A stretch of DNA of 56,460 nucleotides from Bacteroidota bacterium (GTDB lineage: Bacteria > Bacteroidota > Bacteroidia > Bacteroidales > JABHKC01). Each line of letters begins with the position of its first letter. Position 1 is the first letter of the stretch. The position numbers and the translations under genes are program-made. Positions 13,401-32,400 of the stretch are shown one piece after another. Under the pieces are notes generated by a model, which made no database searches, was not told where the DNA came from, and was given only the letters and a program-made list of their open reading frames with translations. The DNA lies in the NCBI GenBank assembly GCA_018692315.1, contig JABHKC010000115.1, positions 1 to 56,460 on the forward strand, given 5' to 3'.

Positions 13401-14550
13401 TATAATCATAATGTATCGGGTCCTTCAATCTTCTATGATCTTCCACCGCATCTTTCATACGTATAGCATCTTCAGGATGAATTAGCTTTAACCATGCTTT
13501 AATAGTTTGAGAAATTTCCCCCTTTTCAAATCCCAGCATACTATCTATATCACCATACCATTTTAATTCATCATTTCTAATATTCCATTCATAGATTAAA
13601 TCATAGGCTACTTTCCCAGCGAGACGCAAACGATTTTCACTTTCCCTTAATGAACTTTCCATTTGTTTCTGTTTAGTTACTTCACGAGAAACTACAACTG
13701 AACCATTAAATTTTTTATCAATAAATATTGGGGACAAGTTCATAGAAAACCATTTGTGTCCAATAGGAAGATCCAGGGAGTATTCAATATTAGCCAATTC
13801 GCCAATTTCGTTTTTAGCAAATGCCTGATTAAATAATTCGCTTACATTTGAAGGTAATATATCGCAAGGTTTTTTACCTATAAAAATTTCAGGTTTTATA
13901 TAAAGATATTTCGGATCATGAGTATGATAAGATGTAAAACGACCGGCAGTATCAAATACAAAAAGAAGGTCTGACATTGATGAAAGTATTCCTTTGAATT
14001 TACTTTCTGATTTTTGGAGTTCTCGCTGAGACTTCTTAAGTTTTGTAATATCCCTACTAACTCCCAGAACAGAAACTATATCACCATTTTTGTCGAACAC
14101 CGGATTTAGAGAAGTATTTATCCAAATAGTTCTATCAGTTGCCGGCATTATGGATTCAAAAGTTTCTGCTCTTTTGCTTTTAAATACCATTTGAATGCTC
14201 CGTTCATAATTATTTGCCACGCTTTTAGGGAATAGGTCTGAAATATTTTTCCCTTGTATTTCTTCCACAGTTTTACCCAAAGTACCGGCTGCTACACGAT
14301 TCACTGATAAAACTTTCCCATTATTATTTATTAAGAATATTAAGTCGGAGGAATATTCAATCAAGGTTTTATATTTCTCTTCACTTTCCTTTAAATTACG
14401 GTTAGTCGTTTTTAATTGTTGTTCGCTGACTGATAGGTTTTCGTATGCAGCAATTAGTTTTTTTTCAGCACTTTCTGAGGCAGCAAGTTTCTGTTTAAGA
14501 ATTTCATTTTCTTTCAAAAGTTGCTCTCGTGTAAGTTCAATATTTTCCAT
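10471..14550 (-). CDS. Soluble hybrid sensor histidine kinase with about seven PAS domains
   Basis: A 1359-residue two-component sensor. Residues 1-60 form a coiled coil with repeated Lys-Leu-Ala and Ser-Glu-Gln-Gln patterns. About seven PAS/PAC units follow, to about residue 965, each starting near ESE-x-(K/R)-(Y/L) and ending in a D-(I/V/Q)-T-x-(R/Q)-(K/I/Q) PAC tail. The HisKA H-box MSHEIRTPMNG has phospho-acceptor His993. The HATPase domain shows an N-box with Asn-Ala-Ile-Lys-Tyr (about 1112) and GSGLGLAISKAYVDMLGG. A receiver domain fills about 1236-1359, with Asp1291 in VLMDIRMPD and the Lys of YVSKPIN. No membrane segment or signal peptide is visible, so it should sense a cytosolic cue. 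No separate response regulator is next to it. Confidence 0.93.
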   Translation of the reverse strand: MENIELTREQLLKENEILKQKLAASESAEKKLIAAYENLSVSEQQLKTTNRNLKESEEKYKTLIEYSSDLIFLINNNGKVLSVNRVAAGTLGKTVEEIQGKNISDLFPKSVANNYERSIQMVFKSKRAETFESIMPATDRTIWINTSLNPVFDKNGDIVSVLGVSRDITKLKKSQRELQKSESKFKGILSSMSDLLFVFDTAGRFTSYHTHDPKYLYIKPEIFIGKKPCDILPSNVSELFNQAFAKNEIGELANIEYSLDLPIGHKWFSMNLSPIFIDKKFNGSVVVSREVTKQKQMESSLRESENRLRLAGKVAYDLIYEWNIRNDELKWYGDIDSMLGFEKGEISQTIKAWLKLIHPEDAIRMKDAVEDHRRLKDPIHYDYRIKTKDGLWRHWKDKALPVLDEDGLPAYWIGICTDQTEQKLSEETLRESEEKYRMIAENTSDTIAICTFDLKAKYLYASYSAKSMHGYEPEELMGKSFFDFIHPNDKVKLFPLLKKYLQMKINQILFRGETTVQESIEFRFRNKDGRWKNMQSMVNLAGNKLIAVSRDVTERIQAERDLKESRERLDLAIQGTNAGLWDWYVQTGKMVYNERWAQIFGYKLEELEPVSIKTWERLSHPNDQKKSKELLEKLFAKEIDFYECEVRMKHKNGAWIWVLDKGKVVEWDKRSNPIRMTGTLIDITRRKQAEDQLQETINELISSEQQLRASHQQLEASQKALQESEALYQLLSDATFEGIFISDKGLCIGQNKSAEKLFGYSMEEALNKPGTDWITPYDREKVKQNMLSGYEQAYYVTAVRKDGSTFPCEIQARMMHYNNKPIRLTALRDISQRKKAEQNLVESERRHRYAQQIAHVGNYEYDIKSGLVYWSDELLRIYGLDPNINGNSFTVDDSFKYVHPEDSEQLKTKIDEATESGNGISLEYRIIRPNDEIRYIFGVNEPTFDDEGQLVKIEGIAQDITYRKKTEKELKIALEKALESERLKSAFLANMSHEIRTPMNGIIGFIELLNQPSISASDKSEYSKIINKSSNRLLNTINDIIDISKLDAGQMKLVKTETSINLLMDELNQFFNPDAKSKGLSLFFALALSNNQATILTDNDKLHGILTNLIKNAIKYTDKGKITFGYTLKKNFIEFFVKDTGIGIPKNRQEAIFNRFEQADIEDWQVYEGSGLGLAISKAYVDMLGGKIWLESEEENKKIGKEGWSKFMFTIPYQKKTIEKIVERPKKKASELIDLKAESLKVLIAEDEEVSTLYLKTILRNICSDLHFVTSGREAIETCRSNSDFDIVLMDIRMPDIDGLKATQEIRKFNKEIIIIAQTAYCLTGDRENAIAAGCNDYVSKPINKELLLEMISKYILGK

Positions 14551-15089: not shown

Positions 15090-18000
15090 CTATTCAACAT
15101 TCATAATACGAGTATCAGAAAAATCTCCACAATTTAATCTATAAAAATACACTCCTGAAGAGAGGTTTTTCTTATCATAAACAATCGTATGTTTTCCATG
15201 AGAATAATTCTTTTCTTCGATAGACTCAATTTTTTCACCTAAAATGCTAAATAATTCAATTTCAACAAAAGCCTTTTCGGGAAGATAAAAACTTATTTCG
15301 GTAGTTTTGGAAAATGGATTTGGCACATTTTGGAAGAGTTTTGCAATTGATAATTGATAATTGATAATTGATAATTTTTTAGCAATTGAAATTTTATTGG
15401 TTTCATAAAACTTATCTCCTTCAATCCATGATACTATTTGCAAACTTTGCTCTTCGCCGGCAGTCCACAGTTTTATCAGAAATTCTTCATTTGACTTTTG
15501 TCCATCAGTTTCCTGCGAAAGTTCGTCGTCGCCCCAGATTGTAATTGCAAGGTTTTCGCCGGTATAAACACCGGCTCCAACCAACAATCCGTTTTGCGAG
15601 AAAATACCTATCTCAGAACCAATTTCAGGTTTAATATCCCAAGTCTGATTTGGAATCATCAAACTCATATTATTTCCAGTGATTTTCACATTTTTATAAT
15701 GCTTAGGTTTAGGAATTTCGATATTCGATTTTGATGTATTCGCTGTATTTGCAGGATAAAATAAAGTAGCAGAATTGCTCATTTTTATTTGATAGCCTTC
15801 GCCGGGATACATATAATCAATAAGGTTAACTCCAAAAATAGGCCAATACATCTGTCCGTAATCATCTTTCACAATAATAATATCGTTTACAATAGAACTT
15901 AAAGCATCTGCTACAGACATTGGTGTAATACGCAAATAAGCAATATAACTCCAACCTTGCTGAATATTTATCGGTGTAATTTCCGGTGGATTATAAAAAC
16001 CAGTAACTATCATTGTATCTAACTGATTCATTTTTATCCAATATCCTTCTTTGAAATTAAAATCGCCTATATCATTAATTCCATACGATGGCCAATAAGT
16101 TGTACCTATATAGTTTTTCATTAAATATACATTTGTCGAAACATTTGCAAACATGCTGTCGCAATTTGTATTCTCCGGCTCCAAATATGTAGATATCATG
16201 CTCCAGCCAAAGTCTAATGGAATATCTTGCTGATTTATTGAATCTACTGCATAGCTTAACTCACTCATACAGATATTGTTATCTGATAGTGTTAGCTCAT
16301 AAATGCCGGCCGATAGGTTTGCAATATTTTGGCTGGTTTCGCTATTGCTCCATAAGAACTGGTAAGGCATAACACCGCCCGAAACGGTTAAATCTATTGC
16401 TCCCACACTGATTGCAGCCGGTGTGTTGATTATGCTTTCGGTAACAACAATTTCATTGGGTTCGATTAGAGTAAATGTTGTGTCGGTGCTACATCCCTGC
16501 ATATCCTGAACCGTAAGGTAGTAGTTTCCGGCTGCGAGGTTTATAGGTGCATAATTTGGAAACGGTGTTGCCCAGATATACATAAATGGCGAAGTGCCAC
16601 CACTTGTCGAAACTGAAATTTCACCACTATTGTTGTCAAAGCAAGATAGATGAGTAATATTTGCAGATATTTGCATTTCGGCAAGTATGTCTATTTGAGT
16701 AGTTGGTGTTGAAATACTTACTCCATCAGAAACTTCTAACATGAATATTGTATTTGCAGTAATGATAGCTTGCAGAACAGAACTTGTGTCTTGCTGAATT
16801 AGAGTATTTCCTGCATACCAACTATATGTATTATTTCCTGTTCCGTTTTCGGTATGGGCAGTGAGTGTTACATTTGTTCCGCTGCAAACTAAGGAATCGG
16901 AAACAGTTATCCAAGCATTAAGTGCCGGACTACCAAACTGTAGCGAACAGGAATTATTATACGGATTGTATTCCTGAGGTGAAACATTCACAATTTCGAC
17001 ATATATTTCTCCAAGTGCAGTAGTTGCCGTCCACGAAACAAAAATTGGGTTTGCAAGACTCGAATTTGCACCTATGAAAACCGGAGAAGAGCCAATATAC
17101 AAGGTGTCGAAATTATTTATAGAAAATACATTCACGGTAGCCGAACCTGCTTCGTTTCCAATATTTATAATTTTTGGATAAATCATAACAAAGCTGCCTA
17201 CATTCGGGTTAGGATTCGATATGCTTACACAAGGGCTTTCGAAAGTAAAATCGGGTGCTAAACCTACAATAAGTGCACGTGTAGCCTGGTTGTTTGCAAC
17301 ATAATCCTCCGGTACAAAATTAGCATTGTCAAGAGATACAGTTATATTATCTACACCGATAGTATCGGGAACAAACACATCTGTACATGCTACCGAAGAA
17401 TCTTCATAAGCTATCAATCCCGAAACATAAACCGAATCGCCAAGGGTTTGACCGTTTACACTAAAGTGAACGAAAAACGGACCTGCATCAACATTTCCAA
17501 TGTTCACAAAAGAGCTTGTAATAGCAACAGTATCGCCCGGATCTGGATTTATTATGCTTGGCGAAATATGTGAAGAAAGAACCTCAAGGTCGGCAAAATG
17601 CTCCTGAACAAAAACATAAATTATATGTGAATTGTTCGATTCGTTTCGTTCGCAAATAATTGAAGAATCCGGTGGAATGAAATCGACTTTCACCTCAATT
17701 TCGTGATTTCCGGGAAGTAGAAACTCATGGTCGAAGGAGCTTAAAACCTGACCGCCAGATGTTATAACCGGAACTACATCAGTGCCAATAAATACACCAT
17801 CGGAAAAATAGGAAACCGAAATATTATTGTTTGTAAAGTTTCCGTTATTTTTCACATAAGTTTTAGCATTTAACGAGCTTCCCAAATCTACATTTATTCT
17901 ATTATAGTAGCTGTTCCATGGATAATATTTCATAGCAAATAAATCGTTGCCAATCTCTTTCACAGAATAATTGTTCGACTCGTTAAGTTCGTAAACAGTT

Positions 18001-21000
18001 TCTGCGGCATCTGCCCAAACGGAAATTGTTTGCGGGCATTCGGTTCTTGCAAAAGTTCCTGACTGAACAAATTGGCTATCGTAGGCAAGCAAACTATCTA
18101 TCCAAACAGAATCTGAAATAAAAGTTGAGTTGTTGTAAAATACTACAAAAAATCCATAAGCATCACTATCGCCGGTATTTGAAATTGTAGCCTGAACAGA
18201 CATCAAAGCTCCTATGGCGGTGTTTACATTTGAAACATTTATATTCGAGGCACTCAGTTCAGGATAAGACTGTTCGATGTATATACTTTCGGTGAGCTCC
18301 TGATTGGCTTCGTTGGTTTCAAAAATATTGTCATTATTATCAACTGTAATTTTTATAAAATGATAACCCGAAGCATAAAAACTATTACTAAACGAAATGG
18401 TATTCTGCGACAAGCCTGAAACAGCTCCAAGATTTAGAATTGCCAGTGTATCGCCGGTAGTAATATCTTCTATCAATGCAGTTGTAGCTGCCGCTGAAAC
18501 GCATTGTAGATTATTAATCTTAAATTGGATATTTACGGATTGTCCAATGTAGGGCGAATTGTCGCTAAATAGAATATCGGTAGGTGCCAAATCCGGAACC
18601 GGTGGATAAATATATTTGCTTTTTTTCAGATAATTGTTCGATTCGTTCGATTCGGAAACAAGGTTAGTATGGTCTATTGAAACTGCAAAAGATTTGGTTC
18701 CGCTCGTAGCAAATGTCATGCTTTTATTTATCGACATACTTTGGCCGGCGGCAAGATTATTTACCCATAAACTATCGCTAATTGTATCGTTTACATAATA
18801 ATAAACCCAGAAATTGCTTGCAGCAAGATTTCCTGAGTTTGTAAAATGTCCACTTATAGACACAGGATTTCCTGCCACTGAACATCCACTATTCCAATTC
18901 AGCCATTGATAGTCTATTCTGAGGTCAACAAACTGATAGACAGGACCTGTTGGAGAACTCGGATAAGGATCGACAGTGAAATATTCGTAGCCAGATTGTC
19001 CGTTTAAAGTATAATCTGTAGCTGTAGAACTAATCGAATAATTGTCCGGCGAGTAAGGAGCCGAGAAATATAAATCGAAATAACCGCCAACAGTAGAGTA
19101 TGTTGTAATTACCTGTCCTGATGGTATTGTCATTTGGATTGTTGCACCTTCGCAAGGCTGATTTCCGCCAAGCGAATCGTAAGTTATCTGACCGAAATAA
19201 TGTATGCTTGCTCCTGTTCCGGCATCAACATTCGTTGGTGTGATTCCGGTGGAAACAAACAGAATTTGCGGAAGCGGAACATTTCCTACAGTTATTGGGC
19301 GAATTGCCATATTGTTCAATTCATTGTCTTCAACTATTGTTTCAAGCGGATCTACTATAACTTTCACAGGAAAATAGTCCCAATATGCAAAATAGTGCTG
19401 TATGGCAACTGAAGTTGAAGTTTGCGGCTGAATTGCGGAAATCATTGTACTATCAACGATTGTATCTTTAATGATAAACCAAACTTTCACGTCTTCGGCA
19501 AGATAATCTGTGTAGTTGTGAATATTTGCAGTGATAGTAATTTGCTCTCCCATATCTGGCGACGAGTTAGAAAAATTTATATCATTTGCAAAAATACTCA
19601 AATCAAGAAAATCGTTACTAACCATTGGATTCGACACATAGCTTGTATTGCTTGCAGTTGCTATATTTCCGAGCGAATCGTAGGCAAAATACTTATAACC
19701 GTGATTTCCAAGACTCAATTGCGTGAAATAGACATAAGTTTTCCCATCTGTAAAATCCTGGTCGTTAGGGTCTTCTTCCGAAAGGCTGATAATTTCGTCC
19801 ATAGGGTCGATAAAATCACCATCGTTATTGTTGTCAATTTTCAGTTTTGGATAGCTTGCCATTGGCGGATTATTATCAAGATCGGAATAAATAATCTGAT
19901 ATTGGAAATAAGTTCCCGACGCTCCTATTGTTGGCGAAACTCCCGAGGTTCCGTTAAAAGGAGAAGCCTGATTGAACGATATATCCGGTGCCTGCGATTG
20001 CAAGTAAGCCCAAGCCAGTAGCGAAACATAATTAGTATTTCCAGAAGCATCTGTAAAACCAAGTTCTGCTGAATGCTGCCCAATTTGGCTTGTATTAAAA
20101 TTAATATCAATTTGTTGGGATGCACCGCTTGCAAGGGTCAAACTGCATGCAGAAACTGTAAATGCTGAATCGCTGATAATGCAATCGGCGATATCAACCG
20201 GTAAAGTGCCCGTATTGTTTATTGTGCAAGTTGTTGAACTCCCGGTGTTTATGTCAACATAGCCCAAGTTGGTATTGTTACAAATCAATTCCCAACTTGA
20301 AACTGCTTCTAAACCTTGCCCTGTAAGTGAAATGTCGGAACATGGTGTATAGCTGTCAGTTACGATATTCAGAATTTCAGAAAATGCTGTATCATATGAA
20401 GGACTAAAAGCCACTTCAATTGTGAGACTTTGCCAGCTCGGTATAACTCCTGCAAATGGGGTGAGGATACTAAAAGCATTTCCCGTAATATCCATTGAAA
20501 CAACCTGCATAGGCGAATTTCCAATATTACTTAGCGTGAACGAAGAGGTATCTGTTAATCCTTCTGCAATACTATTAAAACTTATAGAGTTGCTTGAAAT
20601 ATCGCATTGAGGGCATTCATTCAAAAATTCGCTTGGAATAATAATTGGCGAATTGCTTAAATCATTGCTGTGAATTTCTATATTGCCGGAGAAATTGCCT
20701 GCAAATGCACTTTCAAAATAAACATCTATAGCAATAGTATTCCCAGAGGCTACTGAAACATTTGGATTTGTAACATGAAGCCAGGCAAAGGATTCAATAA
20801 CATTTACATTTAAAATGCCGCTTCCTGAATTGCTTATAAAAATAGTGTCGTAAACAATATCGCCACAATTTGCTGTATGCGACAAACTATCTGTTTGTAC
20901 AGAAATAGTTGGGAACGAAACAGGTTCGTCTATTGTGAAATTAGCAGTTGCTGTACAATTTGAAGCATCTGAAATTGTTACAGAATAGTTTCCTGCAACT

Positions 21001-24000
21001 ACATTTTGCAAATTCTGACTTGAAGAACCATCGCTCCAAATGAAACTATACGGTAAAGTACCTCCGGAAACCGAAAGATTTACAGCACCGGAAGCAGTTC
21101 CCGGATAAATTACATCTGTTACGGCAGAATTTATTATTAGAGGTGCGGGCGAGTATATTGCAAAATAAACTTCAACACTGCAATTGTTTGCATCGTTTAC
21201 GCTGACTTGGTAAGTCCCTGATGATAAATTATTTATCGAACTTGTGCTTTGCCCAATAGACCACATATAATTGTAGGGAGCTGTGCCACCACTCACATTT
21301 AAAGCAATGCTTCCGTCGTTTGCACCGCTGCAACTAATGTCGGAAATAACTTCATTTAATGACAATTGAGCAGGATCGCTTAAATAGTAAGTCGCTATAG
21401 TTTGGCAGGAATTTAAATCGGTTACTGTTACATAATAGTTCCCGGCAGACAACCCACTGATTGTTTGATTGTTATTTCCAATATTCCAACTATAGTTGTA
21501 AGGTGAGTTTCCACCGTTAGCACTAATGGAAATGCTACCGTCTGAACCGGCGGGACAAAGTGGTGAAACTAAGGTTTCGGTAACATTTATCTGATTTCCC
21601 TCGAAAATTTCGACATTTCCAGTGGCTGCACAACCCGTTTGGTCGCTTGCTGTTACAGTATAGACACCTGCAGAAATATTATTCAAATCTTCGGAATTGC
21701 TACCTGTGTTCCATTGATAGACGTATGGAGCAGTTCCGCCCGAAGCAGAAAGATTTATTGCTCCTGAAGAACCGCCATAACAAAACACATCGAAAGTTGC
21801 AAAGTCGAGATCCATAGAATCGCCGACAGTTACAGTAAAAACTTCTGAATTTGTACATTGCCCATCGAAATAACTATATGAAATATCGAAAGTTCCTTCT
21901 CCGTTCAATGTTGGATTATATGTATTTCCATTAATACCATCACCGGTAAATAAACCACCTGCCGGCATACCTGTAAGTGTTACAGTAGGAGCATTGAAAC
22001 AGTAAGCCGAATCAAGACCAAGAATGCTAACATTTGTGGTTTGCGAAACATTTGTAGTTTGGCTTGTGCTGTTTGAACATCCGTTTGCATCGATAAATGA
22101 ATATGTAATTGTATGAAAACCAAGACCTGCCGTGTATGGAACAAAGGCATCGTTAGACAATCCGTTTCCGTTGAAAACTCCACCTGCCGGACTTCCAGTC
22201 AATGAATAGTAGGTGGCTGATAGACAATAATTTGTATCTAATCCTGCGAAACTAACCGTAGGCAGGGGATTAATAGTAATCAGAATTTCGTCGCTCGATT
22301 GGCAACCATTTACATCGCTTACAGTTACACTGTACAATCCTGTAGAACTGGCTGTTATTAATGGATTTATTGAACCTGTATTCCAATAATAATTTATGAA
22401 AGTTCCATTGTTTGCCGACAGAGCCTCAACTGTAACAGGTGTTCCACAAGTAGTGGTATCGCTTGGCAGGCTTACAAAAATTGTGTTTGAGTTTTGAACA
22501 TCGAGCTGGCAGGCTATTTCAAATTGTGGTGTCAAAGCATCGTTTGTGGCAATAGTTATATTTCCTGAATAAATGCCTGTTGCAAGATTCGTTGCATCGA
22601 AATTTATATCGAAAACCACCGAATCGCCTGAGGATAGCGATGAGCCAATATTAGAAACCGTAAGCCACGATAAATTTTCGCTGACCGTATAGTTCAAAAT
22701 TCCCTGTCCTTCATTTTTCAGAATTAGTGTTTGGTTGAGCTGATCGTCGCAGTTCACTGCAATAGCATCGAGGTTGTCTGCCGAAATGGTTACATTAGGA
22801 ATACCAAGCCCGAAACCGTGTAAAGAAACTTCTACATATTGGTCATTATTATAAATTTTTAGAGTGTCAAAATAATGAGTAATAAGCCCGGGTGTGAACA
22901 ATACATCTTTATTTGATGATTGTCCAGGCAATATATAAAATGGAGATTGGCTTACTGCATACCATGGATTTGTTGTTCTTAAACTATCGACAAAAAGGGT
23001 GTCGCAACCAATGTTTGCTAAAGTTGCATATAAATAGCCGGTAGTATTCAGATTTATTGAATCGAATTCTAAACTTGGAGTTAAAACCGAAATTGTAGGG
23101 GCACCAATAACATCCATCGAAACTGTAAACATATGAGTTGTGTTTAGCGGGTCGTTGGTATTTAATAATATTTGAGTGCTATATGAGCCAACATTCATTG
23201 CATTTGCATCGAAACCAAAATCAATAACTATTGAATCGCCAATAGGAACAATTCCCATATCCGGCGATGCGCTTAGCCACGGTACAGTAAGATTACTAAA
23301 ATTGAAATCTAATTCGCCAATTCCAGTATTATAAATAGTGAATTCAGAAACTGTTGAATTTTCGCAGTTTACGTTTGCTGCAATCGAATTTTGATTGTAA
23401 CCTACAATAGGTGCTCCGGTAGAAACTCCTTGCAAATTAATGGTATGAACTCCATCATTGGTTGATAACACTAATTCATCTGAATAAACCTGGGCATTTT
23501 CCGGAATAAAATCTATCGTTAAATCATATTGACTGAAAGGCTGAATTGTCAATGAGTTTACATATGCCCAAAAGTCTGACAGAGTGTTGCTTACACTGTA
23601 AATTTCTAATGTATTGCACCCATTGTTGAAAATTGTGAGTGTTTGCATGTCGCTCATCCATTGCATAGTCTGGTCGAAATAAACCGTATCAGTAGAAAAT
23701 GAAATTTGTGGATTTCCGAACAGGTACAAATTACAATAAATTGAACTTGAAGGATTTTGTGGGTCGTTTGTAGAAATAATAATTTCTGCCTGATAGTTTC
23801 CGGCTATCAATCCTGCTGTGTTCACAATTAAAGTCATTTGTGAAGTGTCGCCTGCAAAAACAGTATTCTGTGCATTTTGCAATTGCAGCCATGAAGGAAT
23901 ACTGCCGGTATTCATAACTGTATAGCTTAAGCCACCTTGCCCAAAATTGTAAATTTCAACTGCCAAAGTATCAGTAGAATTGCAGTTTTGCAGAGTTGTG

Positions 24001-27000
24001 CTAAGGCTGGTCGAAGAATAGCCAACCACAGGTGCACCATCGGAAATTCCTGAAAGTACTATAAAAGTATCTGTTGCATTGTTGAACAAATATAAGGTAT
24101 CGACAAATTGCCCCGAGCTTGTAGGACTAAAACTAACGCTAATTTGTTCCGAACTAAATGGTTCAATAAACAAGGAATTGTTGCCGGCAGAAAATTCAGC
24201 CAAGGAATTCGCAATATTTGTAATAACCAAAGTATCGCAACCCGTATTTTCTATAGTGAAACTTTGCTGCGAGCTTGTCCATTGTGTTACATTCCCGAAG
24301 TCGAGAGAAGTATCAATCAATGCAATTTCCGGTGAACCATAAACATTTAAATTAATTGGGATTGAGATTTGGGGGTTTAAGGGGTCGTTGGAATTTATAA
24401 TTACATTGGCTGAGTAGTTTCCACTTTCGAGATTAAGAGAATTGAACGATAGATCAATTTGCTGGTTTTGATTTTGTGGAATAATACCAGTATTCGGAAT
24501 AATATCAACTATATTGTTATTAATAATTGGTGCAGTTGAGTAAATTGTTGTTGTATTGCCGTATGCTACTCCATTGTTTCCATTGCCAGATAAATCTTCC
24601 CAAGGATTTTGTCCATTAAAATTATAATAAGCAACCAGACCTGATTCGTTTCCTGTTAAGGATGTGTTCATTGAAGATTGGATTTCTTGTTGAGATCTTG
24701 CATAATTCCAAATTCGTATTTCATCAATCTGTCCTGAAAACGATTCTGGATCATTAATTCCATATCCACCAATTTGAATTTTATTGATAATTTCTACGAC
24801 ATTATTTACAGAGCCATCAAAAATTCCATTAACATAATACTGCAATAAACCATTTGAAGAACAGGTTGCGACAACATGTGTCCAAACATTAGAAGGAATG
24901 GATGATGTAGCTCCTGGTTGTGGCCAATAGCCAAGCACACTACCAGAAGTTGTGGGACAAATATAAAGAGCCTGATCGCTACCCGTATAAGTTTGAATAA
25001 TAGCACGGTAATCACTTTGAGTCCCATCATCTTTAATCCATGCTTCTAATGACCATGCAGTAAGATTTCCTGAATATGGAGTGTTAATATAATCCCCACT
25101 TCCATCAAAACTTGCAGCCTGCCCTGAAGAATTATTTTGATTCCCCAAACTTTCAATCTCATACTCCAAATCGCCACTACCATTATTATAAATTGTGATA
25201 GGAACTGTGGCTGAATCGTCGCATGAAATATAAACGTCTATTGAGTCGGGCACAACAGAAATTGCTGGTGCTCCGAGACAAATTCCAGATAAGCAAATAG
25301 TTGAATTGCCAATATTTGTTTGAATCAACAAAGTGTCATTAAAAGTGCCACCCGAAATAGGCGAATATGTTACAGAAAACTGCTCAATTTGGTTTTGTGC
25401 AATTGTGTATCCTGTTCCCGAAAGTTGGAAAATTGTATCGGCATTTGTTATCGAACTAACATATAAGGTATCGCAACCGGTGTTTTCGATTGTAAAATTT
25501 ATTGTAGTATCGGTGTTTTGCATTAGGCTTCCAAAATTGAGACAAGTATCGGATAATAGAATTTGAGCCGGCGAATTGTCAATAATGGCTATTGCCGAAA
25601 CCAAATTGCTTGCACAAACCGATTGATTTCCATTTATTGTGAGTGTAAAATCGTCAATAGCCCATTGGTCATAATAATTTCCAGAGTGATCTATTTGACG
25701 TAAACGGAAACTAGTGGAAGCTGTTTGAGCCCCGACTGGCATATTTTCTGAAATATATGTAAAACTGCTAAATGCTTCTGTATCATAAATACTTATAGTT
25801 GTCCAACTTGAGCCATTATTTGTTGAATACTCTAATGCAATGTCTTCTCCACTATCAGCATTTTCACAGGTTGAACCACCTCCGGTACCAATTAATAGGT
25901 AGAACTCAATGCTACCTCCAAGAGTAAAATCAAAGTTGTTTGATTGAACTAATCGTGTTCCACTTGAAGTAAAATGAAGAGCATTTCCGCTCATAGCACC
26001 ACAAGTAGTATTATTTGAAGCATTGCTTGAACTTGCCCAAATTGAAGAATTCAGACCCGAATTAAAATCATCAGTCAAAGTAATTGAACTTGGATAGAGA
26101 GCCTCAACATAAAAAGTATCGTTGTCGAAAAGTACCGGACTAGTGTAGTTTGCACCGGAATGAAGTAGTGTTCCGCCGGGGAAATCGTACCAGTTGTAAA
26201 TACCCGATGAGCCTGAAACAAATAAATCGACAGAACCGCTTCCGCAAAGGTAACCATCGGTAGCTGTAGGGTCTGGGGGCGATAAGCTTACCATTGTAGT
26301 ATCGCTGTAGCTATTCATACAACCCATCGTATCGTAATAGAGATAATAAATATTGTATGTTCCTATTCCCGACAAATTTGGATTGAAAGTATTGCCGCTA
26401 ATGCCTTGTCCGTTGAAAGTTCCGCCGGCGGGAATCCCTGTCAAAATACTTGGTGCATCGCTGCCACAATATTCTGGCTGCAAACCTGTGAAACTAACCA
26501 CCGGTCCTACGTATGTAGAAACAATTAAAGTATCGGTGCAGCCATATTGGTCGGTATAGCTGTATGAAATATCAACTGCTCCGGCTGCAACCATTCCGGG
26601 ATAAAAAATATTGCCATTTATTCCGTCTCCTGTAAAAGTACCACTGTCGGGCGTGGCAAACAGAGAGTCGGGCAAACCGTTTGTTGCACAATAGTACGAG
26701 TCTAATCCACTCACAGAAAGTGTAGGATATGAATAATTGAAAATCTCGATACTGTCGGTTGCCAAACAGCCGTTTTGATTGCTCACTTCTACCCAATAAA
26801 TTCCGGCAAGCGAAACATCAATAGTTTGTGTTGTGTCGCTGGTGTTCCAGAGATATATCATTCCGGGATTTCCAGCATCAAGAGTTGCTGAATTATTAAA
26901 ACATAAATTTTGGTCTGCACCTAAATCAACTATTGGATTTTGGTGAATAGTTAAATCTACAATCACCACACTATCGCAGCCGTTTGCTGTGATTAGTGTG

Positions 27001-30000
27001 TCGTAATAAATTCCGCTCGAACTTGCCAAAACTCCACTAAAATAAACTTGCTCCGATTCACAAATTTCCATTGAAAGATTGCTGACATTGTAGCAAGAGT
27101 CTGTTAGGTTTGCTTGGACTATTAGTTGGGAAATTCCGGTGCCTTCGTTATAGAGGGCTTGGATTTCTGCTTCAGAGAGGGCTCTGTTGTAGATGCGGAT
27201 GTCGTCGATCTTACCGTTGAAATAAAACGGGAGTCCATTAAAACTACCACCACCAATCCTGACTGGGTCATTACCTGATGCTAATAATCCAGAGGTGCTA
27301 ATTAAGTTGTCCAATTGACCATCTATATATAATGAAAGGTTTGCTCCGTCCCAATGTTGAGTAATAAAGAACCATTTATTTTCAATTAGATTAGAATTAG
27401 AAGGAAAAGCATATTGATTGTTAGTCCATACATGTGCAAAAATTTGACCAGCTGACGACGATCCTATAACCCATTGTCTATTTTGAGTTTCACCATCTTT
27501 ACTAACCAAATCGCCATACCAAGCATCTGCATTAACCCAAAGACAAATCGTATGAGAATTTTGCTCAAATCTATAGTCTTCTTGTATTGAAATATAATCA
27601 TCTTCACCATCAAAACTATAAGCAGAATTTGGATTTCCAAATCTGTCTGTAGAAAGTGTTGGCCCATAGTTTATTGTTCCATGTAAGATTCCATCATTTG
27701 GAATCGAATCACCACTCTCATCATTTGCATCTCCATTAAACGGATAATAAGCCACGAGCCCAGAATCTAAGTTTAGAGTTTCTGTGGCATCGCTCGAAAT
27801 GTTAAGCGTGTCGGTATAATTTCCAATTGCATTATTTTGGTTTAAAATAATTGGAATTTCTAATGAGTCGCCTGCGGGTACCGAAATACCCTGCGGGTTT
27901 TGAAAACCCGCAGGGTATGCTCCCATTATAAACGGTTCTTCCAAACCAAACAAACTGTCAATTGTTAGGTTGCAGTTTCCTGTATTAATAAGGTATGCCG
28001 AAAGAGTGTCGTATGCCTGCATAATATCAAGAGTTCCAAAGTTTATGGTGTCGGGGCTGAGGCTTAGGATTGGGGTGCATGGTTCTGTAACTTCAAAACT
28101 ATCAGAAACTATGCAGCCGTTTGCATCGGTAATATCGACAAAATATGTTCCGGCAAGTAAGCCGCTAATATCTTCGGTGGTTCCGCTGGAATTCCATACA
28201 TATATATAAGGTGTGGTTCCGCCGGAAATTGATATATCAATTGCTCCATCATTTGTTCCCATAGAAGAAACATCAGTAATAGTTGCATAAATTGTTGGCA
28301 AAGAATTCACTGTTAAAGTTAATGTTACTGTAGAATCGCAAGCATTTGCAGCAGTGAAAACTTCAGTATAAATTCCTGTTACAGAAAGCATTTGTGTACC
28401 GAAAATGTATGATTCGCCATCGCAAATCGAAGCCGATATTGTGTTTGTTATTTCGATTGGTTCAGTGATATTAAATGATAAAACTTCATTCTGATTTCCA
28501 TTAGTTCCAACGGCTACAAGGCTCTCTAATCCACTCATTCCGTTTACAACAAACACAGAATCACTAATAAATGGAAAACCTGACAGAATATAAGTTGCAT
28601 TTGCATCGTAAGTGCTTCCTGTCGATGCTTGCCAGATTCGCCATTTAAACAATTCCCCAGTAGCAAAGCCATCGTTGCCGGTATCAACACCCCAGGCTGT
28701 TATAGCATCCATATTACCTGTCCATTGAATGTATCCTCCACATGTCAAATCTCCTGTATTTTGCTCATAGAAAACACCAATATAATCTCCGTTTTGTAAT
28801 GGTTGACCATCAATTAACAGTGAAACAGTAGGTTGCACCATTATTATGTGATTTGTTCCGGTAACATTATAATTCCAATCGAAAATGCCCGAAGTATTCC
28901 CTCCATTATCATCACCTACTGTTACAGAATAATTTCCGGCAAGTAATCCTGAGAGATCTTCTGTTGTTGCTCCGATTGACCATGAATATGTGTATGGTGG
29001 GTTGCCTCCTGAGATTGTTAGGTCGATTGCTCCGTCAGCACCGCCATTACAGCTTAGGTTGGATTGAGTATAACTAACTGAAAGTTGAGGAGAATTAACT
29101 GTGATATAATCCACCATCACCAAAGTGTCACTACTATTTCCATCAGAAACAATCAACGAAATTGTATATAATCCGTCAGTTTGGTAAATATGCGAAGGAT
29201 TTTGCACGGTATCAGTTGTTCCATCACCAAAATCCCATAGCCAAGTTGTTGGGTTTCCGGTTGATAGGTCGGAGAATTGGATTGTGTCGTTTGGAGTAGT
29301 GAGTGTGTCGGAGGTGGTGAAGTTGGCTGTGAGTGGATCGTATAAAATTCCAGTTTGAGAAGTAAAATAGACATTATCCAATCTAACTTTTCCTCCTTCA
29401 CTATCATTTTCGTTTCCATGTCTGTAAACTAAAGCTTTTACTGCAAGAGTTTGTCCGGAATATGCCGATACATCATACCATACATCTTCATAATTTGTTT
29501 GGCTGTTCTGCCAAGAATATGAATCGGGCGATTCTTCTAAAACATTATTCCCAAGTAGTATTTGAGAATAATTATTATGGTAACCATCATATTCATGAAG
29601 CTGCCTCTTCATATGTAGAAAAACCGGAGCTGATGGAATCTGTATTGGAGTAGAAGATAATGTAGTAGTTCCTTGTTCTCCTTGAGACCAAGCGGTCAAA
29701 TGAGCATTTCTATTTCCGGTTTCATATTCTTCAATGCTTGCAATTCCATTTCCTGTTAGTTGCCAATTTACTAAATCTGGATATTGTTCAAAGTTGAAAT
29801 TTGGAACAAGAATACTACTTGCTCCAACAAAGATATAATCCACCATAACCAAAGTATCGCTACTTGTGCCGTCAGAAACTACCAATGAAACTGAATAAGT
29901 CCCGGCTGTTTGATAAATATGCATTGGGTTTTGGGTAGTGTCTGTAGTTCCATCGCCAAAATCCCAAAGCCAAGCTGTTGCGTTTCCTGTTGATAGGTCG

Positions 30001-30395
30001 GTAAATTGGATTGTGTCGCCTAATGTTAAAGAGGTATCGGATGCAGTGAAGTTGGCCACGAGTGATGGAGCAATTCCAGATAACACTTCAATATAATTTG
30101 TTTTAACATGAGTATCAGAAATCTCACCTTCATCAATAAACAATGAAACAGTGTAAACGCCAGTTGTTTGATATATATGGCTTGGGTTTTGAATTGTGGA
30201 TGTATTTCCATCGCCAAAATTCCATGACCATAAATAGTATGGACCTGTTGAGAGATCAGTAAAAAAAATAGTATCTCCCAATACAATTGAGGTATCGGAA
30301 GCTGTAAAATTTGCTTGAACGTACTGTGCCTTTAATTCATTCCACAGCCCCAAAAAAGCCACTGTCATTGTCAAAAAAAGCAATGTTTTTCTCAT
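15090..30395 (-). CDS. Giant secreted multidomain protein with T9SS sorting domain (SprB/PKD/CARDB type)
   Basis: A 5101-residue protein. It has a Sec signal peptide (1-24, ending LKAQ), then PKD domains (about 25-110, 110-195 and 355-440) flanking a carbohydrate-binding-like module. SprB repeats and HYDIN/choice-of-anchor-D-like repeats follow, with two LamG domains (about 875-1087 and 1752-1959) and a Reelin-like domain (about 1436-1593). A tandem set of four SprB repeats (about 2860-3157), several CARDB-like domains (about 3597-4490) and two more SprB units come next. The C-terminus (about 5020-5101) begins FQNVPNPFSKTTEISF and is a type A T9SS sorting domain. It is probably exported and attached to the cell surface, or released, as an adhesin or cell-surface filament. 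No enzyme motif was seen. A TPR/AraC regulator lies upstream on the same strand. There are no frameshifts. Confidence 0.93.
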   Translation of the reverse strand: MRKTLLFLTMTVAFLGLWNELKAQYVQANFTASDTSIVLGDTIFFTDLSTGPYYLWSWNFGDGNTSTIQNPSHIYQTTGVYTVSLFIDEGEISDTHVKTNYIEVLSGIAPSLVANFTASDTSLTLGDTIQFTDLSTGNATAWLWDFGDGTTDTTQNPMHIYQTAGTYSVSLVVSDGTSSDTLVMVDYIFVGASSILVPNFNFEQYPDLVNWQLTGNGIASIEEYETGNRNAHLTAWSQGEQGTTTLSSTPIQIPSAPVFLHMKRQLHEYDGYHNNYSQILLGNNVLEESPDSYSWQNSQTNYEDVWYDVSAYSGQTLAVKALVYRHGNENDSEGGKVRLDNVYFTSQTGILYDPLTANFTTSDTLTTPNDTIQFSDLSTGNPTTWLWDFGDGTTDTVQNPSHIYQTDGLYTISLIVSDGNSSDTLVMVDYITVNSPQLSVSYTQSNLSCNGGADGAIDLTISGGNPPYTYSWSIGATTEDLSGLLAGNYSVTVGDDNGGNTSGIFDWNYNVTGTNHIIMVQPTVSLLIDGQPLQNGDYIGVFYEQNTGDLTCGGYIQWTGNMDAITAWGVDTGNDGFATGELFKWRIWQASTGSTYDANATYILSGFPFISDSVFVVNGMSGLESLVAVGTNGNQNEVLSFNITEPIEITNTISASICDGESYIFGTQMLSVTGIYTEVFTAANACDSTVTLTLTVNSLPTIYATITDVSSMGTNDGAIDISISGGTTPYIYVWNSSGTTEDISGLLAGTYFVDITDANGCIVSDSFEVTEPCTPILSLSPDTINFGTLDIMQAYDTLSAYLINTGNCNLTIDSLFGLEEPFIMGAYPAGFQNPQGISVPAGDSLEIPIILNQNNAIGNYTDTLNISSDATETLNLDSGLVAYYPFNGDANDESGDSIPNDGILHGTINYGPTLSTDRFGNPNSAYSFDGEDDYISIQEDYRFEQNSHTICLWVNADAWYGDLVSKDGETQNRQWVIGSSSAGQIFAHVWTNNQYAFPSNSNLIENKWFFITQHWDGANLSLYIDGQLDNLISTSGLLASGNDPVRIGGGSFNGLPFYFNGKIDDIRIYNRALSEAEIQALYNEGTGISQLIVQANLTDSCYNVSNLSMEICESEQVYFSGVLASSSGIYYDTLITANGCDSVVIVDLTIHQNPIVDLGADQNLCFNNSATLDAGNPGMIYLWNTSDTTQTIDVSLAGIYWVEVSNQNGCLATDSIEIFNYSYPTLSVSGLDSYYCATNGLPDSLFATPDSGTFTGDGINGNIFYPGMVAAGAVDISYSYTDQYGCTDTLIVSTYVGPVVSFTGLQPEYCGSDAPSILTGIPAGGTFNGQGISGNTFNPNLSGIGTYNIYYLYYDTMGCMNSYSDTTMVSLSPPDPTATDGYLCGSGSVDLFVSGSSGIYNWYDFPGGTLLHSGANYTSPVLFDNDTFYVEALYPSSITLTDDFNSGLNSSIWASSSNASNNTTCGAMSGNALHFTSSGTRLVQSNNFDFTLGGSIEFYLLIGTGGGSTCENADSGEDIALEYSTNNGSSWTTISIYDTEAFSSFTYISENMPVGAQTASTSFRLRQIDHSGNYYDQWAIDDFTLTINGNQSVCASNLVSAIAIIDNSPAQILLSDTCLNFGSLMQNTDTTINFTIENTGCDTLYVSSITNADTIFQLSGTGYTIAQNQIEQFSVTYSPISGGTFNDTLLIQTNIGNSTICLSGICLGAPAISVVPDSIDVYISCDDSATVPITIYNNGSGDLEYEIESLGNQNNSSGQAASFDGSGDYINTPYSGNLTAWSLEAWIKDDGTQSDYRAIIQTYTGSDQALYICPTTSGSVLGYWPQPGATSSIPSNVWTHVVATCSSNGLLQYYVNGIFDGSVNNVVEIINKIQIGGYGINDPESFSGQIDEIRIWNYARSQQEIQSSMNTSLTGNESGLVAYYNFNGQNPWEDLSGNGNNGVAYGNTTTIYSTAPIINNNIVDIIPNTGIIPQNQNQQIDLSFNSLNLESGNYSANVIINSNDPLNPQISIPINLNVYGSPEIALIDTSLDFGNVTQWTSSQQSFTIENTGCDTLVITNIANSLAEFSAGNNSLFIEPFSSEQISVSFSPTSSGQFVDTLYLFNNATDTFIVLSGISDGAPVVGYSSTSLSTTLQNCNSTDTLAVEIYNFGQGGLSYTVMNTGSIPSWLQLQNAQNTVFAGDTSQMTLIVNTAGLIAGNYQAEIIISTNDPQNPSSSIYCNLYLFGNPQISFSTDTVYFDQTMQWMSDMQTLTIFNNGCNTLEIYSVSNTLSDFWAYVNSLTIQPFSQYDLTIDFIPENAQVYSDELVLSTNDGVHTINLQGVSTGAPIVGYNQNSIAANVNCENSTVSEFTIYNTGIGELDFNFSNLTVPWLSASPDMGIVPIGDSIVIDFGFDANAMNVGSYSTQILLNTNDPLNTTHMFTVSMDVIGAPTISVLTPSLEFDSINLNTTGYLYATLANIGCDTLFVDSLRTTNPWYAVSQSPFYILPGQSSNKDVLFTPGLITHYFDTLKIYNNDQYVEVSLHGFGLGIPNVTISADNLDAIAVNCDDQLNQTLILKNEGQGILNYTVSENLSWLTVSNIGSSLSSGDSVVFDINFDATNLATGIYSGNITIATNDALTPQFEIACQLDVQNSNTIFVSLPSDTTTCGTPVTVEALSANNGTFINYYWNTGSINPLITASSTGLYSVTVSDVNGCQSSDEILITINPLPTVSFAGLDTNYCLSATYYSLTGSPAGGVFNGNGLSNDAFVPYTAGLGFHTITYSFIDANGCSNSTSQTTNVSQTTNVSILGLDSAYCFNAPTVTLTGMPAGGLFTGDGINGNTYNPTLNGEGTFDISYSYFDGQCTNSEVFTVTVGDSMDLDFATFDVFCYGGSSGAINLSASGGTAPYVYQWNTGSNSEDLNNISAGVYTVTASDQTGCAATGNVEIFEGNQINVTETLVSPLCPAGSDGSISISANGGNSPYNYSWNIGNNNQTISGLSAGNYYVTVTDLNSCQTIATYYLSDPAQLSLNEVISDISCSGANDGSIALNVSGGTAPYNYMWSIGQSTSSINNLSSGTYQVSVNDANNCSVEVYFAIYSPAPLIINSAVTDVIYPGTASGAVNLSVSGGTLPYSFIWSDGSSSQNLQNVVAGNYSVTISDASNCTATANFTIDEPVSFPTISVQTDSLSHTANCGDIVYDTIFISNSGSGILNVNVIESFAWLHVTNPNVSVASGNTIAIDVYFESAFAGNFSGNIEIHSNDLSNSPIIIPSEFLNECPQCDISSNSISFNSIAEGLTDTSSFTLSNIGNSPMQVVSMDITGNAFSILTPFAGVIPSWQSLTIEVAFSPSYDTAFSEILNIVTDSYTPCSDISLTGQGLEAVSSWELICNNTNLGYVDINTGSSTTCTINNTGTLPVDIADCIISDSAFTVSACSLTLASGASQQIDINFNTSQIGQHSAELGFTDASGNTNYVSLLAWAYLQSQAPDISFNQASPFNGTSGVSPTIGASGTYFQYQIIYSDLDNNPPMASYPKLKIDNNNDGDFIDPMDEIISLSEEDPNDQDFTDGKTYVYFTQLSLGNHGYKYFAYDSLGNIATASNTSYVSNPMVSNDFLDLSIFANDINFSNSSPDMGEQITITANIHNYTDYLAEDVKVWFIIKDTIVDSTMISAIQPQTSTSVAIQHYFAYWDYFPVKVIVDPLETIVEDNELNNMAIRPITVGNVPLPQILFVSTGITPTNVDAGTGASIHYFGQITYDSLGGNQPCEGATIQMTIPSGQVITTYSTVGGYFDLYFSAPYSPDNYSISSTATDYTLNGQSGYEYFTVDPYPSSPTGPVYQFVDLRIDYQWLNWNSGCSVAGNPVSISGHFTNSGNLAASNFWVYYYVNDTISDSLWVNNLAAGQSMSINKSMTFATSGTKSFAVSIDHTNLVSESNESNNYLKKSKYIYPPVPDLAPTDILFSDNSPYIGQSVNIQFKINNLQCVSAAATTALIEDITTGDTLAILNLGAVSGLSQNTISFSNSFYASGYHFIKITVDNNDNIFETNEANQELTESIYIEQSYPELSASNINVSNVNTAIGALMSVQATISNTGDSDAYGFFVVFYNNSTFISDSVWIDSLLAYDSQFVQSGTFARTECPQTISVWADAAETVYELNESNNYSVKEIGNDLFAMKYYPWNSYYNRINVDLGSSLNAKTYVKNNGNFTNNNISVSYFSDGVFIGTDVVPVITSGGQVLSSFDHEFLLPGNHEIEVKVDFIPPDSSIICERNESNNSHIIYVFVQEHFADLEVLSSHISPSIINPDPGDTVAITSSFVNIGNVDAGPFFVHFSVNGQTLGDSVYVSGLIAYEDSSVACTDVFVPDTIGVDNITVSLDNANFVPEDYVANNQATRALIVGLAPDFTFESPCVSISNPNPNVGSFVMIYPKIINIGNEAGSATVNVFSINNFDTLYIGSSPVFIGANSSLANPIFVSWTATTALGEIYVEIVNVSPQEYNPYNNSCSLQFGSPALNAWITVSDSLVCSGTNVTLTAHTENGTGNNTYSWYAGNTLIQQDTSSVLQAIITANTIFMLEVSDGVSISTPTTQIDILAEMQISANITHLSCFDNNSGEISVSTSGGTSPFMYIWATPFPNYAPINLAAGNYYLTVQDMQGCSTDTTFTLIEPNEIVVTESIINTPAAISVGAIDLTVSGGVMPYQFLWSNSETSQNIANLSAGIYELTLSDNNICMSELSYAVDSINQQDIPLDFGWSMISTYLEPENTNCDSMFANVSTNVYLMKNYIGTTYWPSYGINDIGDFNFKEGYWIKMNQLDTMIVTGFYNPPEITPINIQQGWSYIAYLRITPMSVADALSSIVNDIIIVKDDYGQMYWPIFGVNLIDYMYPGEGYQIKMSNSATLFYPANTANTSKSNIEIPKPKHYKNVKITGNNMSLMIPNQTWDIKPEIGSEIGIFSQNGLLVGAGVYTGENLAITIWGDDELSQETDGQKSNEEFLIKLWTAGEEQSLQIVSWIEGDKFYETNKISIAKKLSIINYQLSIAKLFQNVPNPFSKTTEISFYLPEKAFVEIELFSILGEKIESIEEKNYSHGKHTIVYDKKNLSSGVYFYRLNCGDFSDTRIMNVE
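15345..15376. repeat. Heptanucleotide tandem repeat inside the giant gene, before the sorting domain
   Basis: Four complete ATTGATA units plus partial ones lie in the coding sequence at about residues 5007-5017 (protein reads KLSIINYQLSIAK). The unit is 7 bases, so gain or loss of one copy shifts the frame just before the T9SS sorting domain. Confidence 0.9.
24520..25140 (-). other. LamG-like cassette nested in a HYDIN-like repeat of the giant protein
   Basis: Residues about 1752-1959 form a LamG/concanavalin-fold unit (ASFDGSGDYINTP, AWSLEAWIK, WTHVVATCS, GQIDEIRIWNYARSQQEI, SGLVAYYNFNG). It interrupts a repeat whose first half ends NNGSGDLEYEIESLG and whose second half resumes IVDIIPNTGIIPQ and NYSANVIINSNDP. 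The neighbouring uninterrupted repeat (LSYTVMNTGSIPSW...NYQAEIIISTNDP) shows that the two halves belong together. Confidence 0.75.
25620..26090 (-). other. Reelin-like cassette nested in an Ig-like domain of the giant protein
   Basis: Residues about 1436-1593 read DDFNSGLNSSIW, CGAMSGNALHF, SIEFYLLIG, IALEYSTNNGSSW, FRLRQID and WAIDDFTL, which is the pattern of a Reelin subrepeat. It splits an Ig-like unit: FYVEALYPS before and VCASNLVSAIAII after are the normal consecutive strands of that unit. Confidence 0.65.
27135..27771 (-). other. LamG-like cassette nested in a choice-of-anchor repeat of the giant protein
   Basis: Residues about 875-1087 start DSGLVAYYPFNGDANDESG and end KIDDIRIYNRALSEAEIQALYNEG, both standard LamG landmarks. 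They lie between NISSDATETLN and ISQLIVQANLTDSC, halves of one repeat. Confidence 0.75.
27886..27918. repeat. Perfect 33-bp palindrome in frame inside the giant gene
   Basis: Arms ATACCCTGCGGGTTTT and AAAACCCGCAGGGTAT flank a single central base. The element is exactly 11 codons and is read through as AYPAGFQNPQGI. A related fragment CCTGCGGGTACC lies about 10 bases away. It looks like a GC-rich dispersed palindromic element tolerated in a coding region. Confidence 0.85.
28497..28905 (-). other. About 137-residue cassette nested in a SprB repeat of the giant protein
   Basis: Residues about 497-633 (from FDWNYNVTGTNHIIMVQ to GMSGLESLVAVG) interrupt the first SprB repeat. The repeat stops at NYSVTVGDDNG and its tail resumes as EVLSFNITEP. 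The next SprB repeat is uninterrupted (FVDITDANGCIVSDSFEVTEP). The insert resembles a domain common in Bacteroidota secreted proteins that I cannot name. Confidence 0.7.
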
Positions 30396-30738: not shown

Positions 30739-32400
30739 CTATGACTTAAAAAATGCACCTTGTTTTCGATATATTGAAGGTTTTAATCCTGTGATTTTTT
30801 CGAAATTTGAACGAAAAGTATTCACTGAATTATATCCAACTGCTACGCCAACTGCTTCAATTTTTAGATTTGATTCGGTAAGCAAGATTTTAGCTTCCAT
30901 AATTCTATAATAATTTATAAACTGATTGATAGTTTTTCCACTATATTTTTTTATTGAGTCAAACAAATATTTACGGTTGGTTTCCATTATTTTTGCTAAT
31001 TCATCAATATTCAAACTATCTTTTTTAAAAATATTGTCTTTCTCAAATTTTTCAATTACTTTATCAAACAGTTCTTTTAATACTTCGTTCTCATTATTTT
31101 CTGTAGAGTTTTGATAAGTATCATCAATTGAAATAGTAGTTTTGTATTGATTTTCTATTTCAAGATTCTTTTTATATAGTGCCTTATATGCCTTATTTTT
31201 CTGCTTATATTGCCAATAAATTAATATCAGAAGAAAAATAACAACAATCAGTGCTATTATCACATTAAACAATATTCTTTCTTTCTTAGATATCTCAGCT
31301 TGTTGAAGCTTTATCATGTTTTGCTTCTCTTTTGTTTCATATTCGACTTGCAAATTTGCAATTCGCTTATTCATATCCTCATTCAGAAGAGTATCTCTAA
31401 GTTTGTTGTAGGCATTTGTATAATCAAAAGCTTCTTTGTAGTTTTCTAAATAATAATTGAAATTTGCAAGATTTTTCAGATTATCTTTTATCAATGGTCT
31501 ATTTCCCACTTTTTTGTTTATTTCAATTGCCTGTTTTAAATAAAATATTGCTTCATCGTACTTTTCTTGTTTCGATAATAATGTGCCCAAATTATTTAAG
31601 TTTACCGCAACCTGACCAGTTCGGCCAATTCTTTTATTAATAGCCATTGCCTCTTTATGAAGCTGCAAAGCTTTATCGTACTGCTTATTAGATGTTGCAA
31701 CTAAGGCTAAACCATTGAGGGAGATTACCAAATAATCAGGTGCATCTATATTTTGAAGAATATTGTATGCCAGGCTGAAATAGAAAGAAGAGGAGTCAAT
31801 ATTATTTAGTTTATAATAGGTACTACCTAACTCATTATAATCTACAGCAATATACATAGAGTTGCCAGACTGTTTATCCATTTCCAAAACTAATCGGGTA
31901 TATCTTATTGACTCTTCATAATTTCCCATTGTGTAATACAAACTGCCTAAAGTGGAATAACAATCTGCAATAGAATTCAAATTGTTTGATTCTTTAGCAT
32001 GTCGCAGTGCATTTAAATTATGTTCTATTGAAATTTCAAAATTGCCTAGCCTGTTGTTGCATGTGCCTAAAAAGATATAGCAATTAACAATTCCACTAGT
32101 GTCAGATACTTGCTTGTTGAAAAAAAGTGCAGTATCAGCATATAAAATGGAAGAATCAATCTTTCCTACATACAAAAGGCAACCACTAATTGCTAGTGAA
32201 ACTTCAGCTATTTTATTTTTTTCATGCAGTGCTGGTAGCACCTTTTGATAAATTGGTAAAGCCTTCGAATACTGACGTTTGGTATATAAACTATCTGCTT
32301 TGCTCAATAATTGTTGGCTTGAATTGTCAATTGCCATTGTATCATAAGCAGTAGCAATGAAAATTAATAAAATAATAATATGTACGATTCTTGTTTTCAT
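30739..32400 (-). CDS. TPR sensor with membrane helix and AraC-type DNA-binding domain
   Basis: A 553-residue one-component regulator typical of Bacteroidota. It has a signal peptide (about 1-23), about six TPR repeats (about 30-335) predicted to be periplasmic, and a coiled segment with KQNMIKLQQAEISKKE. A membrane helix at about 375-392 (IIALIVVIFLLILIYW) and a C-terminal AraC helix-turn-helix pair (about 450-553) follow. The last region includes RKYLFDSIKKYSGKTINQF and YNSVNTFRSNFEKITGLKPSIYRK, the standard second HTH. It would sense a periplasmic or secretion-related cue and act on DNA at the membrane. It sits 343 bases upstream of the giant T9SS gene on the same strand, so that gene is a plausible target, but this is inference. 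Confidence 0.9.
   Translation of the reverse strand: MKTRIVHIIILLIFIATAYDTMAIDNSSQQLLSKADSLYTKRQYSKALPIYQKVLPALHEKNKIAEVSLAISGCLLYVGKIDSSILYADTALFFNKQVSDTSGIVNCYIFLGTCNNRLGNFEISIEHNLNALRHAKESNNLNSIADCYSTLGSLYYTMGNYEESIRYTRLVLEMDKQSGNSMYIAVDYNELGSTYYKLNNIDSSSFYFSLAYNILQNIDAPDYLVISLNGLALVATSNKQYDKALQLHKEAMAINKRIGRTGQVAVNLNNLGTLLSKQEKYDEAIFYLKQAIEINKKVGNRPLIKDNLKNLANFNYYLENYKEAFDYTNAYNKLRDTLLNEDMNKRIANLQVEYETKEKQNMIKLQQAEISKKERILFNVIIALIVVIFLLILIYWQYKQKNKAYKALYKKNLEIENQYKTTISIDDTYQNSTENNENEVLKELFDKVIEKFEKDNIFKKDSLNIDELAKIMETNRKYLFDSIKKYSGKTINQFINYYRIMEAKILLTESNLKIEAVGVAVGYNSVNTFRSNFEKITGLKPSIYRKQGAFFKS

Follow-up and report, generated by a model that had tools for sequence, protein, structure and literature searches.

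Complete domains nested in stalk repeats of a giant Bacteroidota surface protein: candidate sockets with variable cargo

Are the domains of giant bacterial surface proteins only joined end to end, or can a whole domain sit in a loop of another one and be exchanged there? This question is raised by contig JABHKC010000115.1 of a Bacteroidota bacterium (order Bacteroidales; assembly GCA_018692315.1), the whole stretch of which, 56,460 nucleotides, was analyzed and is called the window below. A single open reading frame (ORF) on its minus strand (15090–30395) encodes a giant surface protein of 5101 amino acids (aa) in which Pfam domains PKD, SprB, LamG, Reelin-B, Ig_7, HYDIN-like, CARDB and Por_Secre_tail were found. 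A previous sequence-only reading had proposed that four modules interrupt repeats of this protein, in frame and at loops, and that this reflects repeated cassette acquisition rather than end-to-end fusion. We found all four modules in the same open frame (aa 499–636, 876–1087, 1437–1592 and 1752–1961; window 24513–28901), nested in the giant protein and in agreement with the coordinates given by that reading. It is probable, in our view, that some repeats of the stalk are Ig-like or PapD-like domains split by a complete second domain (the cargo) in one loop; this degree of confidence is meant for the best explanation as a whole, which comprises split repeats, sideways display, a ligand-seeking N-terminal end and occasional replacement of the cargo. 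All features of the protein described below lie on the minus strand.

Four host repeats and their inserts

In SprB repeat 1 (Pfam SprB), the N-terminal part (aa 437–498; 28902–29087) is separated from the last strand, EVLSFNITEP (28458–28487), by insert 1, a 138-aa module (aa 499–636; 28488–28901) with an unnamed domain of about 120 aa, which sequence alignments and an AlphaFold2 (AF2) model place in the F-G hairpin of the repeat. The model of repeat and insert, built from 33 sequences, had a mean predicted local distance difference test (pLDDT) value of 91 with dips at both linkers, and its last strand (pLDDT 97) pairs with the N-terminal part to give one Ig-like domain. In a VIA structural alignment about 73 residues, spread over model positions 1 to 210, matched a single Ig-like domain, with Z values that are middling and an aligned range that spans the insert (RB49 Hoc, Z 7.3, root-mean-square deviation (rmsd) 2.1 Å; Aureispira GhpA, Z 6.9, 24% identity). 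A Foldseek search of the PDB with the first model gave no match at E 0.001. According to the model, the two flanks of insert 1 fold as one Ig-like domain.

The host of insert 4 is a PapD-like/HYDIN repeat, below called a socket. Its N-half (aa 1709–1751; 25143–25271) and C-half (aa 1962–2020; 24336–24512) matched the socket hidden Markov model (HMM) with E-values of 2.5e-19 and 7.9e-25, respectively, and enclose a LamG module (aa 1752–1961; 24513–25142; Laminin_G_3, 7.2e-21, 75.3 bits with a cut-off of 27.6) that could be aligned with filled sockets of other genomes. With the HYDIN profile (PF22544, cut-off 25.5 bits) the N-half gave no match and the C-half 23.2 bits, while the joined halves reached 31.0 bits. 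An AF2 model made with window sequences only contained two confident halves around a LamG domain that it does not resolve. In the VIA alignment, both halves together matched single PapD-like/ASH domains, including HYDIN 2e6j (Z 12.1, rmsd 1.9 Å over 102 residues); the best Z was 13.3, and values of 12–13 were obtained with HYDIN, CEP192 and other ASH/PapD-like domains. Thus, in this model too, the flanks form one domain, here PapD-like, across the insert.

The host of insert 3 is an Ig_7 domain (PF19081, 42.9 bits) which runs to its F-G hairpin (aa 1373–1436; 26088–26279) and is followed by a Reelin subrepeat-B module (aa 1437–1592; 25620–26087; PF21471, 1e-28, 100.1 bits with a cut-off of 27) and by the last strand of the host, VCASNLVSAIAIID (25578–25619). 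When the flanks were joined, this strand extended the Ig_7 match from 42.9 to 48.2 bits and its coverage from 65 to 79 of 84 profile positions. Host 2, a HYDIN/choice-of-anchor-like repeat, was traced to its last loop (aa 773–875; 27771–28079) with a PF22544 score of 20.8 bits, under the cut-off. It is followed by a second LamG module (aa 876–1087; 27135–27770; Laminin_G_3, 3.7e-27, 95.8 bits with the same cut-off of 27.6) and a presumed last strand, ISQLIVQANLT (27102–27134), similar to a strand found after LamG in contig 207. Joining the flanks raised the score by 0.4 bit, to 21.2 bits. Paralogues of host 2 occur elsewhere in the genome of the same bacterium: two in contig 165 are uninterrupted, and one in contig 207 carries LamG at the corresponding position.

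Hence the view that each module is flanked by two parts of one interrupted repeat agrees with the structure models for inserts 1 and 4 and with the profile for insert 3, the joined flanks of insert 4 also scoring better than its halves; for insert 2 the case is weaker and comes from paralogues. Similarly, the placement of the insertion points at loops follows from the models of host 1 (the F-G hairpin) and host 4 (the loop after the fourth strand), and for inserts 2 and 3 a site ahead of the last strand is predicted.

The domain within insert 1 (28518–28880) has the pattern W..NTG.NHTILI...GDYIGVFY. It belongs to no Pfam or NCBIfam family, no convincing solved relative was found by sequence, and comparison of its fold gave weak matches (5ek8, Z 7.1). 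In total, 198 distinct copies were collected from 75 loci (L099–L173), ranging from Bacteroidales to Ignavibacteriae and Cloacimonadota. Most of them are not nested, and free and tandem copies occur; in about 40 cases, from named Bacteroidales and Bacteroidia genomes, the domain occupies the same SprB hairpin as in the window. A diverged copy is located at 15372–15692, directly ahead of the sorting domain of the giant protein. It should also be noted that in two loci the domain is itself interrupted by LamG (L088 of genome G239, ORF aa 597–906; L093 of genome G144, ORF aa 594–903), which means that cargo can become host.

Empty and filled sockets

Using separate profiles for the N-half and the C-half, we revealed in the window, besides the filled socket, four empty ones with linkers of 5–8 aa: at 23715–24035 (8 aa), 23103–23414 (6 aa), 22491–22802 (5 aa) and 20634–20912 (6 aa). 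Hosts without inserts were thus found in the window, as well as elsewhere in its own genome and in other genomes of the order.

At E 1e-6, the host repeat was detected in 137 of the 295 genomes of the order. The gap between the halves of the 112 scorable sockets was either 6–27 aa (27 sockets) or 107–432 aa (85 sockets), with none of 28–106 aa; since the surveyed loci were picked by host match, these counts are not frequencies. Filled sockets were also present elsewhere in the phylum, other classes included (genomes G303, G410, G547, G316, G382, G417 and G349), and a single protein may contain up to eight scored filled sockets. The cargo fell into 13 sequence clusters, among them LamG (22), ThuA-like (16), GEVED (15), an unnamed domain of about 125 aa (13), Reelin-B (6) and PA14 (2). 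One single-member cluster also matches ThuA weakly, so that slightly fewer than 13 folds may be really unrelated. Some cargo classes occur in more than one host: LamG was found in at least three host types, and Reelin-B, carried by Ig_7 in the window, resides in PapD-like sockets in six other genomes. As judged from these alignments, the host repeat of insert 4 is a fixed socket, the same loop of which is empty or bears unrelated domains in its homologues.

Two further observations concern this survey. The ThuA/glutamine-amidotransferase-like domains in the stalk sockets of L043, L046, L080, L083 and L213 are unexpected cargo for an adhesin-like protein. In four loci of one genus (L214, L216, L222 and L228), host repeats with and without an insert alternate along the chain.

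The order of sockets along the chain was not random. Proteins having both kinds gave 69 filled/empty pairs, and in 62 of them the filled socket was the N-terminal one (permutation p 5e-5). To relate this order to the cell surface, the mode of export has to be considered. The protein ends with a type IX secretion system (T9SS) type A sorting domain, the C-terminal export/anchor signal (15111–15323; TIGR04183, 33.3 bits with a cut-off of 23), and the gene for the translocon component SprA is present in the genome (PF14349, 608.8 bits); from these two features we read the protein as T9SS type A cargo and predict that this giant is brought to the cell surface by type IX secretion. Of nine comparable giants examined, seven passed the TIGR04183 cut-off as well. 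Type A cargo of the T9SS has its cell anchor at the C-terminus, so that the N-terminal part lies far from the cell.

The following working can be proposed. An insert placed outside the line of the chain would leave the stalk continuous and project sideways, its far face being free to bind glycans or other ligands. The filled N-terminal sockets would then make up the far, ligand-seeking part of the molecule and the empty ones a spacer, and the filled-before-empty order fits such a display end. Since one and the same loop is vacant or bears many unrelated, sometimes swapped, domains across the Bacteroidota, the stalk probably works as a rack for interchangeable binding domains; by analogy with the split-domain adhesins discussed below, display with ligand binding may be attributed to the present protein as well.

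Inheritance and exchange of the cargo

Is the cargo inherited with its host, or is it exchanged? Across families, host identity was 0.342 for sockets with the same cargo and 0.336 for those with different cargo (permutation p 0.11), which indicates that host similarity is unlinked to cargo at this distance. Replacement could be located in the collinear giants of two congeneric genomes, G169 and G262, where socket 3 contains LamG in one protein and PA14 in the other, and the neighbouring sockets keep their cargo at 73–92% identity. The DNA identity of this pair was 0.85 before the site, 0.70 in the N-half of the socket, 0.63 in the following repeat and 0.84 in the next socket; judging from this drop and recovery, the replaced block appears to span the cargo, the C-half of the host and the repeat that follows. 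In a second genus (G316 and G398) the cargo of the last socket is non-homologous (25–29% identity, near the shuffled level) between homologous flanks. It can be suggested that cargo and host repeat are mostly passed on together, and that now and then the cargo is replaced, probably through recombination between similar host repeats that would swap a cargo block and part of the neighbouring stalk.

The most serious alternative is a fixed ancient architecture, in which each host-insert pair arose once and was spread by duplication or inheritance of whole repeats, so that the variety would reflect gain and loss of repeats and not exchange of cargo. In its favour, the SprB/insert 1 and PapD-like/LamG pairs align end to end across families, and nearest host neighbours share their cargo in 49 of 112 cases, from which it follows that host-cargo units are inherited together over short times. 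Furthermore, the giants of one genus pair, that of G115 and G214, align collinearly (4551 columns, 22 gaps) and have kept their occupancy at 46% identity, so exchange may be rare, and another pair (G349 and G543) is 94.7% identical with the same layout and sockets. It does not explain why host identity is independent of cargo across families, how non-homologous cargo came to a syntenic socket within one genus while the flanking sockets remained unchanged, or why Reelin-B and LamG each occur in different hosts; we consider it unlikely as a full account. Much less credible is active mobility, that is, a dedicated element or site-specific system putting domain-coding cassettes into loops. The recurrent and precise insertion point, the in-frame junctions and the N-G-N-Q-type linker residues at three of the eight insert junctions could be taken as its traces, but selection for a folded host predicts the same precision. 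At these junctions direct repeats or microhomology did not exceed one base, and neither target-site duplications nor inverted repeats common to the junctions were found; a repeat search of the region returned only the similarity of host repeats and one short hairpin. Nor did the inserts stand out clearly in composition: their codon usage is typical of the host gene, and the tests of codons and GC content revealed no clear sign of foreign origin; only the GC content at third codon positions was low, in inserts 3 and 4 (0.20 and 0.19 vs 0.30 ± 0.04). Just as improbable is a reading in which each flank is a small domain of its own, with the module as an ordinary end-to-end neighbour. Free and tandem insert-1-type domains and the negligible profile gain for insert 2 would suit this reading; it is contradicted for inserts 1, 3 and 4, by models and structural alignments running across the insert, by the scores of joined profiles and by empty copies whose halves are directly joined.

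The explanation by split repeats with occasionally replaced cargo has its own difficulties. Besides the stable occupancy just described and the choice of survey loci by host match, these are the LamG of insert 4, the orientation of which the model does not give, some cargo (ThuA-like, propeller-like) that is not obviously ligand-binding, the orthology of the G316 and G398 proteins, which is less certain, and insert 2, the weakest case of nesting, which is argued from same-genome paralogues.

Taken together, the proposal that domains were acquired repeatedly as cassettes, and not by end-to-end fusion, stands in part. Nesting as a recurrent, position-specific mode is supported: a given slot can be vacant or occupied by unrelated cargo, hosts and cargo are uncoupled across families, one cargo class enters different hosts, and cargo differs at syntenic sockets in two genera. 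On the other side, two of the host-cargo combinations are met again as units in other families, sockets can keep their occupancy even between widely diverged proteins, the junctions bear no duplicated target site and the composition no clear anomaly, and the same domains are also found fused end to end. The sequence comparisons thus indicate that exchange of cassettes is real but occasional, and that in many cases host and cargo are passed on together as a fixed pair. The closest relatives compared with the source genome were those at order level, and the history of its own four inserts lies outside this comparison. A bolder version, which we put forward tentatively and hold to be rather doubtful, is that PapD-like repeats across the phylum are sockets dedicated to display, with their conserved halves acting as homology arms that swap the displayed domains and diversify adhesion, so that an open-ended plug-in adhesin system would result.

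Some features of the surrounding DNA should be mentioned. The giant gene is flanked by genes for a multi-PAS hybrid histidine kinase (10471–14550) and a TPR/AraC-type regulator (30739–32400), which possibly regulate its expression. The heptamer AATTGAT is present in 4.6 copies at 15345–15376, close to the 3' end of the giant gene and directly ahead of the sorting domain, and a gene for a pseudouridine synthase contains, in its 5' part, 3.1 copies of a 108-bp unit (49130–49463).

Significance and known systems

If the proposed explanation is true, candidate ligand-binding domains could be picked out from sequence alone, as interruptions of stalk repeats, in many Bacteroidota giants that lack annotation, and changes in specificity of giant adhesins would become testable in congeneric strains. 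The principle of split domains, known from RTX adhesins, would then hold for a second secretion system and for further host folds as well, which would suggest that loop insertion has been used convergently to expose domains sideways from a tethered stalk. For protein design, the sockets would offer a natural set of loops accepting many unrelated domains. Sockets of this kind, whether in Bacteroidota or in type IX-secreted giants, were not found described in the open-access literature searched.

The nearest known parallel is provided by the RTX adhesins MpIBP, FrhA and AhLap, in which split Ig-like domains project ligand-binding domains, PA14 among them, from the axis of the protein (PMC12077191, PMC10865825). 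In both systems a beta-sandwich domain of the stalk is interrupted by a whole domain (in the window, at inserts 1 and 4), and PA14 occurs as cargo. In contrast to the RTX adhesins, the giants studied here depend on type IX rather than type I secretion, their hosts are PapD-like, SprB and Ig_7 domains, and they have many cargo classes, up to eight scored filled sockets per protein and cargo on the N-terminal side; ligand binding was shown for the RTX adhesins and is inferred here. A Pfam scan of the 5101-aa protein (E 0.01) found no RTX family. On this result the giant protein is not an RTX adhesin; it would only work like one.

Nested domains as such are common: one study gives insertions in 20% of multidomain proteins and describes domains interrupting others and families acting as hosts or as inserts (PMC13114784). 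The sockets share these properties, and differ in that they form a single family of small repeats, arranged in tandem, which takes up many unrelated domains at a fixed position and the cargo of which can be exchanged within a genus. Within the phylum, GH10 xylanases of gut Bacteroidetes carry CBM4 in a loop of the catalytic barrel (PMC7848910); there too a binding module occupies one permissive host loop, conserved in xylanases of many Bacteroidetes, but the host is an enzyme with one site, whereas here repeated stalk domains take up many cargo types and coexist with empty copies. Finally, the grappling-hook protein GhpA of Aureispira (PDB 9flw and related entries), to whose Ig-like domains the split SprB host could be aligned, is also a giant Bacteroidota surface protein.

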